Shown one piece after another: positions 958 through 6,907 of a stretch of DNA of 7,363 bases. The position numbers and the translations under genes were made by a program. The notes under the pieces are model-generated. The model worked only from the letters and a program-made list of their open reading frames with translations. It had not been told where the DNA came from and did no database searches. Each line of letters opens with the position of its first letter. Position 1 is the first letter of the stretch. The stretch is from Legionellales bacterium. GTDB lineage: Bacteria > Pseudomonadota > Gammaproteobacteria > PIVX01. The stretch is from contig JABSQI010000080.1 in NCBI GenBank assembly GCA_013215905.1, positions 1-7,363 of the forward strand, in the 5' to 3' direction.

Positions 958-986
958 CAAGAAGTAGGGGTTTCCCCTACTTCTTG
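958..986. terminator. Hairpin between convergent porin and nth genes
   Basis: Arms at 958-970 (caagaagtagggg) and 974-986 (cccctacttcttg) pair perfectly over 13 bp around a 3-base TTT loop. The hairpin starts 9 bases after the porin stop and covers the last codons and the TAG stop (979-977) of nth on the other strand, so it is placed to end transcription in both directions. Neither flank has a clean T-tract (GTATTGTTTA follows on the plus strand), so it is a weaker intrinsic terminator than the stem alone suggests. It could instead protect the 3' ends of the mRNAs. Confidence 0.7.
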
Positions 987-1615
987 TATTGTTTATTGAT
1001 GTAGTATTTACAGTTATTTCTTAAAAAACACTCATCACATTTGGGATTTCTAGCTTTGCAAATATACCTTCCATGCAAAATTAACCAGTGATGGGCATTT
1101 AGTAAAAATTTTTTGGGTATTATTTTTAATAATTGTAACTCGATCTCTAGAGGGGTTTTGCCTTCTGCTATACCTAATCTATTAGATACCCTAAAAATGT
1201 GTGTATCTACAGCTATAGTAGGTTTACCAAATGCAGTATTTAATATAACATTAGCAGTTTTTCGACCTACCCCAGGTAGTTCCTCTAGCTTGCTTCTTGT
1301 TTTAGGTATTTTACTGTCGTATTTATCAATTAGAATTTTGCATAATGAAATTATGTTTTTCGCTTTAGTGTTATATAGCCCAATAGATTGAATATAAGAT
1401 TTAAGTTTATTTTCTCCTAAACTATAAATTTTATCTGGAGTATTATGTTCATTAAAAAGCTTCATTGTAGCCTTATTTACGCTTTGATCGGTAGCCTGAG
1501 CTGATAAAACAACGGCTATAAGTAATTCAAAGTTGGTGGAATATATAAGCTCGGTGGTAGGTGAGGGATTATTACTTTGAAATTTTTCAAAAATACTATT
1601 GATGTTCCTGTTCAT
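977..1615 (-). CDS. nth: Endonuclease III (DNA glycosylase/AP lyase)
   Basis: This 212-residue protein is a bifunctional base-excision-repair enzyme that removes oxidised pyrimidines and nicks the abasic site. The length matches Escherichia coli Nth (211). Visible signatures are the N-terminal helical core with VLSAQATDQSVNK (about 36-48), the helix-hairpin-helix LPGVGRKTAN (113-122) with catalytic Lys119, and VDTHI (136-140) with catalytic Asp137. The C-terminal cluster loop is C186-X6-C193-X2-C196-X5-C202, exactly the spacing that holds the [4Fe-4S] cluster. All key residues are present, so the gene looks functional. Its ATG lies 4 bases after the rsxB stop, which puts it last in the metG-rsxB-nth cluster. 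No Shine-Dalgarno is visible, so translation may depend on ribosomes finishing rsxB. The last codons lie inside the convergent hairpin. Confidence 0.97.
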   Translation of the reverse strand: MNRNINSIFEKFQSNNPSPTTELIYSTNFELLIAVVLSAQATDQSVNKATMKLFNEHNTPDKIYSLGENKLKSYIQSIGLYNTKAKNIISLCKILIDKYDSKIPKTRSKLEELPGVGRKTANVILNTAFGKPTIAVDTHIFRVSNRLGIAEGKTPLEIELQLLKIIPKKFLLNAHHWLILHGRYICKARNPKCDECFLRNNCKYYINKQYKK

Positions 1616-1619
1616 AATA

Positions 1620-2177
1620 TTATTTTTTAAGCAAATTTTGGATATATTGTTGTTTTTGTTTTACTATATTCTTGTCTTTATTGCTTATCATTGTGAAGTT
1701 ATTATCTATTTTTCCTATTCTTTTTTGCTTAGCATAATATCGTTTTTTGGCGATTATAGGCGAGTAGTAAATATCCTCATTGGTTTTTTCTATACAATCT
1801 ACTGGACATGCGGGAATGCATAAATTACATCCTGTACATTCCTTTTTAATAACAGTATGCATTTTTTTTGCTGCGCCTATTATTGCATCAACTGGACATG
1901 CTTTAATACATTTAGTGCAGCCAATGCAATCTTTTTCACGAACTTTCACAATTGTATATTGTTTAGAATTTTTGCTTATTTTGTCAAGATAAGGTTCAGA
2001 ATCACGCTGAAGAATGCTAGCTATGTCTTTTAATGTTTTTATTCCCCCTGGAACACATCTATCAATACGATCTCCTCTTATGATGGCTTTTGCGTATGAT
2101 AGGCAATCTTGGTAAGTGCATTCTTGACACTGAGTTTGTGGTAAAATGTTATCAATTTCAGTTAAAGTATCTTTCAT
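1620..2177 (-). CDS. rsxB: RnfB/RsxB-type iron-sulphur electron-transfer protein
   Basis: This 185-residue protein carries three predicted [4Fe-4S] clusters. The N-terminal RnfB-type domain has C17-X2-C20-X4-C25 and C41 in the LPQTQCQECTYQDC and CVPGG context. Two ferredoxin motifs follow: C84IGCTKCIKAC94P and C114TGCNLCIPAC124P. In the Rnf/Rsx complex this subunit passes electrons between NAD(P)H-linked and membrane subunits, and in E. coli the complex keeps SoxR reduced. Here the membrane-anchoring hydrophobic N-terminus of canonical RnfB is missing, and no other rnf/rsx subunit is in the window. The product is therefore probably a soluble, stand-alone version; its partner is unknown. A Lys-rich tail (about 140-185) replaces the usual C-terminus. 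The ATG overlaps the ancestral metG stop as TAATG, and nth follows after 4 bases. All cluster cysteines are intact. Confidence 0.9.
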   Translation of the reverse strand: MKDTLTEIDNILPQTQCQECTYQDCLSYAKAIIRGDRIDRCVPGGIKTLKDIASILQRDSEPYLDKISKNSKQYTIVKVREKDCIGCTKCIKACPVDAIIGAAKKMHTVIKKECTGCNLCIPACPVDCIEKTNEDIYYSPIIAKKRYYAKQKRIGKIDNNFTMISNKDKNIVKQKQQYIQNLLKK

Positions 2178-4158
2178 TACTGAACTAGCATTCCTGGAGT
2201 AGCTCCGTTGTCTGGGGAGAGCATATAGATATTTTCTTTGTTAGATGCCATTAATACCATCCCTTCTGAGATCCCAAAACGCATTTTTCGGGGTTTGAGA
2301 TTAGCAACTAACACAGTTAATCTACCTTCAATATCTTTTGGATCAAATGCTTATATAATCCCAGCAAAGACTTGTCTTGGCCTATCTTCTCCAACATCCA
2401 GCTCTAGTCTTAAAAGAGAATCAGCTCCATCTATATGAGAGGCAGAAATAATTTTTGCAACTTTAAGCTCGATTTTTTTGAACTCTTCAATAGTAATATG
2501 GTTATTTTCTATTTCTGGTGTTTTTGGTTCCATAATGCTTTCCTGTATTTTTTTTAATTGGACCTCCTCTATTCTTTTTGTGATAGGGCTGAATTTGTTA
2601 ATTGTGTGTGATAGCAAAGGTTGTTTTGTGTCTTCCCAAGTTAATTTATTAACATTTAGGAAATTTTCTATAGCTAAAGCAATATTAGGAATGACAGGTT
2701 TTAAGTATACTGTGAGTATTTTAAATAAATTAATACCCATAGAACAAATATCTTGAACTATTTGATTTTCTTCTTCTTTAATTAGTTTCCATGGTTTATG
2801 TTGATCAATGTACTTGTTTGTTAAATCAGCGCACTCTGTAATAATCCGGATAGCTTTGGCAAACTCTCTTTGTTCATATAATAAAGCTATCTGATCTGAT
2901 TTTTGTGAAATAGTATTAAATAATTCTTGATCGTGTAATGTACTGGAAAGTTGATTGTTAAAATGTTTTTCTAAAAAACCGCTACATCTACTAGCAATAT
3001 TTGTAAACTTACCAACTAGATCAGCATTTACTCTCAACATGTAATCTTTGAAATTAAAATCTATATCTTCAACCTTATTAGACAATTTGGCCGCGAAATA
3101 GTATCTCAAATGTTCAGGATCCAGATAGTTTAAATATTGTCTTGCAGTGATAAAATTATTACGAGATTTGGACATCTTATTGCCGTTAATGGTTAAGAAA
3201 CCATGGGCAAATATTGAGGTAGGAGTACGGTAATTGCATGCTTTTAATATAGCTGGCCAAAATAGGGCATGAAAATAGATAATATCTTTACCAATGAAAT
3301 GGTAAAACTCATAGTTACTATTTTCCTGTAAAACCTCTTCTAATTCTAATTCAGAATTTTGATCTGTGTAGTTTAATATACTTGCAAGATAGCCAATAGG
3401 TGCATCAAGCCAAACGTAAAAATATTTGTTAGGATAATTTGGAATTTTAAAACCAAAGTAAGGATGATCTCTTGAGATATTCCAATCTTTGAGATCTTTT
3501 TTAAACCACTCTAATAATTTATTTTTTACTTCTGGCTGTACGGAATGTTTATTTAGCCATTCTTCTAGAGATTTTTTATATTTATTGAGATTAAAAAATA
3601 AATGTTTAGAGCTCTTTGTTATTGGAGTTGTCTGACTTAAAATAGATATAGGATCTTGTAGTTCAGTTGGTGAATATGTTGCTCCACAATTTTCACAGTT
3701 ATCTCCGTATTGGTTTTTTGCATTACATTTTGGACATGTTCCTTTAACGTATCGATCTGGTAAAAATATATTTTTACTTCTGTCAAATGCCTGTTCTATA
3801 TTTTTTGAAATTATATCTCCGTTTTTTTCTAATTTCTCAAAAATAGTATCAGCTAGTTTTTTATTTTCTTTAGAATGAGTTGTGTAGTAATTAGCAAATT
3901 CTATGTTAAATTTTGCAAAATCTTCAATATGCTCTTGTTGGATTGGCTTAATAAATTCTTCAGGTTTTTGATTTTGTTGGGATGCTTTTAACATAATAGG
4001 TGTGCCATGAGCATCATCAGCACAGAAATACCAACACTTGTTACCCATTAAATTTTGGAATCTAGCCCAGATATCTGTTTGAATGGCTTCTAAAATATGC
4101 CCATATGTAGCGAGCCATTTGCATATGGCAAAGCGCTTGTAACTATAATTTTACGCAT
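2177..4158 (-). pseudogene. metG: Methionyl-tRNA synthetase with frameshift and nonsense codon
   Basis: MetG charges tRNA-Met in the cytoplasm. The start is the ATG at 4158, giving MRKIIVTSALPYANGSLHMG, then a one-base deletion at 4099/4098. Adding one C restores HMGHILEAIQTDIWARFQ and joins the long open frame (4048-2351). That frame carries the CADDAHGTP region, the zinc knuckle (C142, C145, C155, C158 in restored numbering), the YVWLDAPIGY region and KMSKS (3178-3164). The deletion falls in the codon for the last His of the HIGH motif, so unrepaired reading stops after 22 residues. A second lesion is TAA at 2353-2351, restored codon 603, inside the C-terminal tRNA-binding domain. The same frame then continues through [18 protein letters not shown] to a TAA at 2179-2177. 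Restored length is 660 residues, against 677 in E. coli. A protein begun at 4048 would lack the ATP-binding HIGH motif. Sequence error is the main alternative to a true pseudogene. Confidence 0.93.
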
Positions 4159-4187
4159 AGATTAAATATTGGTTAATATATTTCACT

Positions 4188-4224
4188 ATTGTATAACATA
4201 TTTCATGCATTAATCTAGCATGAA
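4188..4224 (-). promoter_or_regulatory. Possible metG promoter -10 and upstream dyad
   Basis: On the minus strand TACAAT (4193-4188) is a 5/6 match to a -10 box, about 30 bases before the metG ATG. No convincing -35 lies 16-18 bases further up. That upstream place is taken by an inverted repeat, TTCATGC (4202-4208) and GCATGAA (4218-4224), with a 9-base spacer. A dyad overlapping the -35 region could be an operator that explains the weak -35, but no regulator is identified and chance is possible in such AT-rich sequence. Confidence 0.25.
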
Positions 4225-4760
4225 GTGTATTTCCTTTAGTAATTTGTCTACCAACGCTAGTATTAGATATTACAAAAATTAAAAGATAGCTTTTTATCAG
4301 AGGATTATGCTTTGATTGTTAGTAGTGTTTTTATTAATATATTGGTATTTTATTTTGAACAAACTTACATCATTAGCACTAGCACTTAAAGTACCATACA
4401 ATACAAAAAATATCCTGCGGATTTATTAATGGAGGAGTTATCAATCACTTTGAGTTTTTTTCATTCTCTAGGAAAAATGCTAAAACAAAAATTAGATTCT
4501 TAAAAACTATATGACTGCTCTTGACTTATTAATTCCTTTTGAATATCATGAATTTGCAATATATATTGTATCTGTATCAATATATTGATAGATGCTTTAA
4601 CAATGATGTCAACTAGGATGTTTGCTTAAATTATAAATTTTAAGTAATAAGTTGGTACAAATAGAGCTAATCTTCGCTTACATATTTCTGCTTTTAGTGC
4701 CTTAACTAAAGCATATTTTATATTGCGAATCATGGGGTAATAAGTTGTAACTTGACAATT

Positions 4761-4800
4761 ATTGGCAATCGATAATTTTTTAAATTATCGGATTGCCAAT
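4761..4800. repeat. Long near-perfect palindrome
   Basis: The arm attggcaatcgataattt (4761-4778) pairs with aaattatcggattgccaat (4782-4800) around a TTT loop, with one unpaired base. This gives an 18-bp stem, far stronger than anything around it. Neither side has a run of T, so a classic intrinsic terminator is not supported on either strand. It could be a mobile palindromic repeat, a protein-binding dyad (the outer attggcaatc and gattgccaat are 20 bases apart), or an RNA structure. It lies about 165 bases before the secreted-protein gene. Confidence 0.75.
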
Positions 4801-4832
4801 TAAGTTTGGTTATTTCTGTCATAGAGTTCTAT

Positions 4833-4860
4833 TATAATTTGCCAAACCTAACATGGTAGG
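4833..4860 (+). promoter_or_regulatory. Possible promoter -10 and small dyad before the secreted-protein gene
   Basis: A perfect TATAAT lies at 4833-4838, but the matching -35 place (4810-4815, TTATTT) is poor. Just downstream is an imperfect palindrome, cctaacatggtagg (4847-4860; 6 of 7 pairs match), which would fall near the transcription start and could be an operator. The leader to the preferred ATG at 4965 would be about 120 bases. Short AT-rich motifs of this kind are common by chance here. Confidence 0.2.
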
Positions 4861-4964
4861 TATTAATCTTTTATTCTGCTTGATAATTTATAACATGCGC
4901 TTACAGTTTTTGTAACATATGTACTATGGTTGTTCTAAGTGCGCGTACTAAAGTTATATACTGT

Positions 4965-5423
4965 ATGAAGATTATAAAAAACTTATTATTTGTGTTTTTA
5001 ATAACTATTGTTCATTGCTCTTTATCTATGAAGGTAGTTGTTACGAATGAAACTAAAAAGAAAATTGCAAGTTATACCTTAATGGTGTACGAATTTGAAG
5101 ATAATTTCAGGTTTAATGTTACTGACCAGGACTTTCTTGCTGGTGCTAGTTCTACTTATAATATAGGGATCTCCTCTCGTTTAATTTACTATTTTGGTTT
5201 GATAATACATTTTAAAGATCAGGATCAAGATAATTATAGTAGTAATAAAGTGGTTATACAGCTCAAATCTTATAGAAAGCTATTTGATGATGATACTGTA
5301 AATATAAGTATTTCTGATGAAGAAACAATTGATGTGAATTTAGAAATAGTTGCTAGTTCTGTAAATCAGCTTACCCTGAAAGACCATATTTTACCTCCAC
5401 TGATGAATTTAACTCTAATTTAA
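4965..5423 (+). CDS. Small predicted secreted protein, family unknown
   Basis: The preferred start is the ATG at 4965 (152 residues). It gives a textbook signal peptide: basic MKIIK, hydrophobic NLLFVFLITIVHC, and a likely signal-peptidase I site after SLS (residue 21). The frame is open back to an ATG at 4926, but that adds 13 residues (MVVLSARTKVIYC) that would mask the signal. The Cys18 context (IVHC) does not fit a lipobox. The mature part, about 131 residues, has no cysteine. It alternates hydrophobic and polar residues in a beta-strand-like way (KVVVTNETKKKIASYTLMVY, YYFGLIIHF, KVVIQLKSY, VNISISDEETIDVNLEIVAS) with an acidic patch KDQDQD in the middle. I do not recognise the family; a small beta-sandwich periplasmic or exported protein is an inference from the pattern. 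No good Shine-Dalgarno is seen. The gene is intact among damaged neighbours, and ampG follows on the same strand after 197 bases. Confidence 0.72.
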   Translation: MKIIKNLLFVFLITIVHCSLSMKVVVTNETKKKIASYTLMVYEFEDNFRFNVTDQDFLAGASSTYNIGISSRLIYYFGLIIHFKDQDQDNYSSNKVVIQLKSYRKLFDDDTVNISISDEETIDVNLEIVASSVNQLTLKDHILPPLMNLTLI

Positions 5424-5620: not shown

Positions 5621-6907
5621 ATGACAGTTTTCCTACGTCCACATATTCTAGCTATAATGTGCTTAAGCTTTGGTAGCGGTCTATCATTCATGATGCTTAT
5701 CTACGCATTACCTATTTGGTTGAAAGATATTAATTTAAGCGTTGCTAATATTGGTAGCATGTTTTTAATAAGTTTACCTTATAGTTTAAAATTTCTTTGG
5801 GCTCCTATTGTAGATCAATATCGGATCCCTGTACTTGGGAATCTATTGGGTCAAAGAAGATCATGGGCTATAGTTTCACAACTTTTCTTGTTTATTTCTT
5901 TAGTTGGCCTGGCTTTCTCTAATCCTGCAGAAAATATCTATATTACCGCAGTAGTTGCCTTTATCGTTTCTTTTTTTGCAGCAACTCAAGATATTGTTTT
6001 GGATGCATATAGAATTGAACGTTTATCAGATAGTGAACTGGGTCAAGGTGTGGCTCTTTCTGGTGTTGGATTTAAGCTTGGAATGTTAGCAGTAACTTCT
6101 GGAGGGTTATATTTGTCTACTATTTATCCTTGGTCAACAGTATATATAATCATGGCATTATTAGGTTTGATAGGACCATTAATGATTTTATTTGTTAAAG
6201 AACCTGATTGCCATAAAAGAAATTCTTCTTTGGAAGAGCTTTATAAAATCCCTGATTCTAATATCATCATTGGTTATTTTTGGCAGGTGATAAAGTGTTT
6301 TAGTAATATTACTAGGCATAATAATTGGCAATTTATCATTTTATTTATTTTCTTATTTAAAATAAGTGACACTATACCTAATACCATTAGCACTCTATTT
6401 TTTATGGATTTGGGATTTGACAAAGTACAAATAGGTAGCGCAAAGACACTAGGTCTAATGGTTATGATGGTTGGGAGTGTACTTGGTGGCTTATTGATGT
6501 CGAGATTTTCTATAATCCAGGCAATTCTTATTGGTAGTGGATTACAATTTAGCTCACTAATTTTATTATATGGTCTTAGTATTTTTGGATGTGATACTGG
6601 TAATACTAATATATTACTACTGATACAGGTTATCCAGTGTTTAACTTGTGGTGCAGCTAATGTGACATTTGTTACTTATCTTTCAAAATTATGTACGGGC
6701 GGATTTACCGCTACCCAATTTGCAGTGATTTATTCTTTTAGCTCTATGTCGAGAATAGCAATTGCCTCCATTTCGGGATGGACATTAGCTGTTTTAAACT
6801 GGGAGTCATTCTTTTTATATACTATGTTCATTAGTTCATTAGTAGTGTTTCCTATTATTATTTTGAAGAATGGCCTTAAAAAGAACTTAGTTAAAGCAGA
6901 AGCCTAA
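5621..6907 (+). CDS. ampG: AmpG-like muropeptide permease (MFS)
   Basis: This 428-residue inner-membrane transporter has about 12 hydrophobic segments. AmpG imports GlcNAc-anhydroMurNAc peptides from the periplasm for cell-wall recycling. Family marks are YALPIWLKD (29-36), LPYSLKFLWAPIVDQYRIP (52-70) followed by GQRRSWAI (77-84), the hallmark AATQDIVLDAYRIERL (120-135), GVGFKLGML (148-156) and, near the end, GGFTATQFAVIYSFSSMSRI (360-379). It is shorter than E. coli AmpG (491 residues, 14 segments) and resembles the compact 12-segment form known from Rickettsia and other intracellular bacteria. The first segment starts at about residue 8. No frameshift or stop is seen, in contrast to nearby genes. 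Its stop lies 25 bases from the convergent broken gene on the right. Related MFS solute carriers share the fold, so the exact substrate is inferred. Confidence 0.88.
   Translation: MTVFLRPHILAIMCLSFGSGLSFMMLIYALPIWLKDINLSVANIGSMFLISLPYSLKFLWAPIVDQYRIPVLGNLLGQRRSWAIVSQLFLFISLVGLAFSNPAENIYITAVVAFIVSFFAATQDIVLDAYRIERLSDSELGQGVALSGVGFKLGMLAVTSGGLYLSTIYPWSTVYIIMALLGLIGPLMILFVKEPDCHKRNSSLEELYKIPDSNIIIGYFWQVIKCFSNITRHNNWQFIILFIFLFKISDTIPNTISTLFFMDLGFDKVQIGSAKTLGLMVMMVGSVLGGLLMSRFSIIQAILIGSGLQFSSLILLYGLSIFGCDTGNTNILLLIQVIQCLTCGAANVTFVTYLSKLCTGGFTATQFAVIYSFSSMSRIAIASISGWTLAVLNWESFFLYTMFISSLVVFPIIILKNGLKKNLVKAEA

Follow-up and report, generated by a model that had tools for sequence, protein, structure and literature searches.

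Bacterial methionyl-tRNA synthetases (MetRS) with a C-terminal tRNA-binding domain are described by the families NF001100, TIGR00398 and TIGR00399, and the metG gene analysed here resembles them in its family scores and in its synteny with rnfB and nth, but differs by a broken frame at the HIGH motif and an in-frame stop in the C-terminal domain. Conserved housekeeping genes split over two frames are not without precedent. In the accessible part of a survey of deposited genomes, the authors suspect that many frameshifts in groEL, rpoB and polA are errors (PMC6403173); those cases share with ours a conserved gene lying in two frames, intact copies in relatives and a sequence that does not decide by itself, whereas our metG carries a second lesion and sits on a short contig. 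The Blochmannia frameshifts, as presented in the available text, likewise affect an informational gene that is otherwise conserved in sequence, in a genome rich in AT, but the indels discussed there fall in poly-A or poly-T tracts, of which those of at least nine bases count as long (PMC3017870), while our junction offers GGG and TTTT. Reduced endosymbionts are reported, in the accessible portion of a further study, to have commonly lost the anticodon-binding and tRNA-binding parts of metG (PMC3620526); our gene has also lost C-terminal tRNA-binding sequence, but the shortened endosymbiont genes lack the anticodon-binding domain as well, whereas ours retains conserved codons past its stop. Finally, excerpts of two other reports describe a Walczuchella genome devoid of the MetRS present in its three compared relatives (PMC3971599) and Wolbachia-like MetRS DNA in nematode genomes (PMC2882956).

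The window, i.e. the whole stretch of DNA analysed, is one entire contig of 7,363 bases, its nth and AmpG-like proteins having database entries on a contig of that length. It carries an lbtU-family siderophore porin gene cut by the contig start (2-949, plus strand; profile match, synteny and alignment), nth for endonuclease III (977-1615, minus strand) and an rnfB-like ferredoxin gene (1620-2177, minus strand), the last two open and assigned by ORF, profile match and synteny, then metG on the minus strand, an open ORF without assigned function (4926-5423, plus strand; weakly similar, at 26 of 74 identical residues, to a short ORF in the relative), and an open gene for an AmpG-family MFS transporter (5621-6907, plus strand; ORF and profile match). 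Of the genomes reached, the closest (G021, 3.1 Mb) has the same order lbtU-nth-rnfB-metG with all four genes open, and its metG is a single open frame of 660 codons encoding the best full-length homologue, P0001, at 100%. The rRNA model detected no 16S gene in G021, as against hits in 9 of 14 control genomes. Because of this shared order, metG of the window is, to judge from its neighbourhood, the native copy. Past metG, an MFS gene and a LysR gene follow in the relative; both are absent from the window, which shows about 770 bases without a gene at that place (4159-4925). Remnants of these two genes were sought in 4161-4930, the best protein match (E 0.010) being unconvincing, and the only DNA match of the interval joins 4502-4806 to positions 13992-14316 of the relative locus L019 at 65%. 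A hint of rearrangement comes from the segment 7227-7335, whose match to 14597-14703 of L019 is inverted and lies close to the homologue of ORF 4926. The protein listed as nearest to the AmpG-like transporter (P0242, 72%) is encoded on a 2,751-base contig, the match in G021 reaching only 36%, so that the protein database includes a further close relative of the window. No RNA family was found in the window at gathering thresholds and no tRNA by ARAGORN; the plasmid collection gave no match by megablast, a search needing close identity, and the viral contigs no pattern match to a close relative.

The metG gene begins at the ATG at 4158, from which the minus strand translates as MRKIIVTSALPYANGSLHMGIF and then stops at TAG 4092-4090, a first frame of 22 codons (4093-4158). 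A tblastn search with P0001 (660 residues, 76% identical to the 565-residue piece of metG) placed its residues 1-20 in the frame 4158-4099 (85% identical), while residues 20-660 fell in the following frame, 4102-2180, with 493 of 641 positions identical and no gap. The two frames meet at 4102/4099, inside the HIGH motif, and in the DNA alignment with the syntenic homologue a single missing base in this junction is the sole gap of the gene. The frame break is hence confirmed in the given sequence. These results bear out the earlier note in that the ORF from 4158 is MetG and that its frame ends at the TAG with loss of the second His; the note's placement of the missing base at 4099/4098 was right about a one-base break but too precise, since the loss has no unique position within the junction and MAFFT chooses another. 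The two His-bearing halves of the motif consequently lie in different frames. Among the 120 homologues listed, the first His is found in all and the second in 119, the remaining protein having Asn. The second frame continues to 2354 (2354-4102) with 583 codons of conserved MetRS sequence comprising the catalytic domain, the anticodon-binding domain and the first part of the tRNA-binding domain, but its first ATG, GTG or TTG is the ATG at 4048, which opens an ORF of 565 codons without the HIGH motif. As written, metG would thus yield a 22-residue peptide or a 565-residue protein, neither of which, by what is known of class I synthetases, would be expected to charge tRNA. The note had further stated that even a frame-restoring slip on the TTTT run would lose the second His; this holds for a -1 slip at the TTT codon there, which gives HMGIFLE, but not for one at the GGC codon (4101-4099), which would give HMGHILE with both His kept.

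The 565-residue piece scores above the curated cut-offs of NF001100 (724 bits, cut-off 587) and TIGR00398 (501, cut-off 336) and, because of the in-frame stop in the C-terminal domain, below that of TIGR00399 (54 of 117 bits). The KMSKS motif is present as KMSKSR; the residue that follows is Asn in the window versus Gly in 119 of the 120 homologues listed. Only one gene of G021 exceeds the MetRS family cut-off. In the class sample, 310 of 369 genomes match P0001 at E <= 1e-180 and just 2 of the 310 have two strong matches, so a spare MetRS copy is rare, and no inner stop was seen in MetRS of this sample among the matches listed. The two genomes concerned are G286 (L024 and L025, both on contig G286:C1), where one match spans residues 65-660 of P0001 and the other residues 2-587, and G070 (L023 and L026). 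A literature search for 'second methionyl-tRNA synthetase' in a limited collection retrieved no paper, and PMC5013485 mentions the enzyme in a reference alone. Among the protein matches listed (the best 120 for metG, and those for nth and the AmpG-like gene) we found no second sequence of the window's species, the next entries listed being 76% identical for nth and 72% for the AmpG-like protein. The window's own metG is likewise missing from the best 120 homologues, which would fit an annotation of it as a pseudogene.

The alternative put forward in the earlier note, an enzyme broken at its catalytic centre or an erroneous base, finds partial support, but its picture of one lesion was incomplete, as two further stops had been missed. 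The first is an in-frame TAA of metG (2351-2353), which stands where P0001 has residue 603 of its 660 and removes the last 58 residues, as seen in the tblastn match with P0001 and in the DNA alignment. It is followed by 57 conserved codons of the tRNA-binding domain and the normal stop TAA (2177-2350); this stop and the rnfB start share one base, as they do in the relative. Since the codons beyond it are still conserved, the inner stop is recent or wrong. Provided that the bases are correct, metG hence carries two frame-breaking lesions against intact homologues, as pseudogenes do. The inner TAA alone could be tolerated, to go by proteins that end before its site, namely solved MetRS chains of 547-551 residues that match P0001 only to residue 539-545 and one of the 120 homologues (P0027, 542 residues), and by the frequent domain loss in reduced endosymbionts. 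This stop may be one more error, or else a genuine and tolerated truncation of the C-terminal tRNA-binding domain, which lies outside the catalytic core. The second stop is a TGA at 44-46 in frame of lbtU, 44 bases from the contig start and amid a run of mismatches to the relative. Reading this TGA as Trp under an alternative code was rejected, the relative having no Trp at that place. The alignment of lbtU with the relative has gaps of 12 and 3 bases within the gene and a single-base gap past its stop, versus none along nth and rnfB, and a 27-codon piece of lbtU gives a dN of 0.21 and a dS of 1.27.

Selective constraint on metG was assessed from columns invariant in at least 98% (or at least 95%) of the other sequences among the best 120 MetRS homologues, checked row by row, with the gene divided into the first frame (A), the second frame up to the inner TAA (B) and the part after it (C). 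At 98%, the window is changed at 1 of 10 columns in A, which is the broken His itself, 6 of 171 in B and 1 of 14 in C, i.e. 7 besides the lesion, as compared with 5 of 195 in P0001, 6 of 195 in P0002, 7 of 197 in P0003 and 8 of 196 in P0004 (maximum 19, in P0008; median 0). At 95%, leaving the broken His aside, the window is changed at 13 of 210 columns in B and at 2 of 22 in C, 15 in all, as against 10 of 238 in P0001 and 14 of 239 in P0002 (maximum 27, median 1), and P0008 is the only one of the 120 rows to exceed the window. The window stands therefore at the upper end alongside its nearest relatives, a position that proves neither intact nor relaxed selection. The control gene nth, aligned with 118 of the 119 homologues listed apart from P0121, the window's own protein, after a single one of 315 residues had been dropped, has no change at 73 and 81 such columns, respectively. 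Relative-rate counts for window and P0001 were 50:36, 28:39, 37:37 and 31:34 with four outgroups for metG (p 0.16 to 1.0) and 13:7, 14:13 and 11:7 with three outgroups for nth; with none of the four is the metG branch of the window significantly faster. Differences from the relative at codon positions 1, 2 and 3 are 0.19, 0.10 and 0.45 in frame B and 0.21, 0.09 and 0.51 in nth, and piece C has a dN of 0.083 and a dS of 0.97. Apart from its lesions, metG gives little indication of relaxed selection, by tests that are powerless for a very young lesion. Neutral substitution simulated over 640 codons hit near-invariant sites about 4 times and created about 1.1-1.2 stops for each 1% of divergence, which would date any real inactivation to less than roughly 1-2%. 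With near-invariant changes about as numerous as in the two nearest relatives and a branch that is not faster, the lesions of metG are either errors or very young, corresponding to about 1-2% neutral divergence at most.

We give about an even chance to the view that the frame break stems from a faulty consensus or assembly of a small draft contig, and we lean towards it over a genuine recent inactivation, which follows close behind. On this view the gene is the native metG of a gammaproteobacterium, normally constrained until essentially now, the break in its HIGH motif is most likely an error of consensus or assembly, and the living cell probably makes a working MetRS; the break, the second stop, the synteny and the constraint are observed, the error being deduced from them. 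Error is our first choice because so constrained a gene, in a class where second copies are rare, should not be dead. In its favour count the syntenic copy beside rnfB and nth, codon-position differences like those of nth, the 7 near-invariant changes against 5 and 6 at the 98% threshold, the lack of a significant rate difference, the single MetRS of G021, the contig of only 7,363 bases, the position of the lbtU stop near its end within a run of mismatches, and the errors suspected in groEL, rpoB and polA of deposited genomes (PMC6403173). Against it stand three lesions in two genes of one contig, two of them stops by substitution, the 15 near-invariant changes at the 95% threshold versus 10 in P0001 and 14 in P0002, and the changed Gly after KMSKSR. 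For two stops to arise by chance, many other bases would have to be wrong as well, about 0.6% by count, and one indel together with two stops by substitution is unexpected for long-read errors.

It is this same mix of lesions that lends weight to a real and very recent inactivation, a reading we put a little short of even, in which metG and lbtU begin to decay because the cell has another MetRS or because the DNA is past selection, as in a dying symbiont lineage or in symbiont DNA residing within a host nuclear genome. The three lesions affect two neighbouring genes, one indel and two stops fit a neutral change of 0.6-1%, the simulated hits and stops per 1% of divergence are compatible with those observed, and the interval past metG has neither the MFS nor the LysR gene seen in the relative. 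The fit to 0.6-1%, the lesion mix and the precedents for MetRS loss and for gene transfer to a host keep this reading close behind error. What speaks against it is the rarity of a second MetRS in the class sample (2 of 310), the absence of near-invariant changes at 73 columns of nth and the open state of nth, rnfB, ORF 4926 and the AmpG-like gene; the last point is weak and does not decide, since all three lesions would fall in half of the codons with a chance of 0.12 and four genes would stay open at 0.6% with a chance of 0.34.

That the lesion is real and MetRS still made, through a -1 ribosomal slip at GGC giving HMGHILE and with the inner TAA merely trimming the C-terminus, is very improbable, and we grant a shade less to the fuller claim that this trimmed protein is the bacterium's only MetRS and its methionine charging dependent on recoding at the Gly codon of the HIGH motif: the frame arithmetic of the slip works, the gene evolves much as a functional one by its near-invariant sites and relative rates, the part past the TAA lies outside the core (the solved chains and P0027 end earlier) and, in the accessible text on Blochmannia and Buchnera, transcriptional slippage is described as correcting frameshifted genes, but the published indels sit in poly-A or poly-T tracts unlike this junction (PMC3017870), whose longest runs are GGG and TTTT and far from a long homopolymer, no X XXY YYZ heptamer occurs in its codons (CAT ATG GGC ATA TTT TAG), no such break appears among the other aligned proteins, although a protein database could hardly show one, and the closest relative, with its one open 660-codon frame, does not conserve it. 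A further point against recoding is that slips which are not programmed give little product.

If true, the loss of the active site in an essential enzyme would point to a second, hidden MetRS, to a lineage that is dying out, to symbiont DNA carried in a host genome or to recoding. We regard the metG break, however, as ordinary for now, with an error in the sequence or a very recent loss as the likeliest causes, and as it stands it mainly advises caution against biological readings of a one-base break on a short contig.
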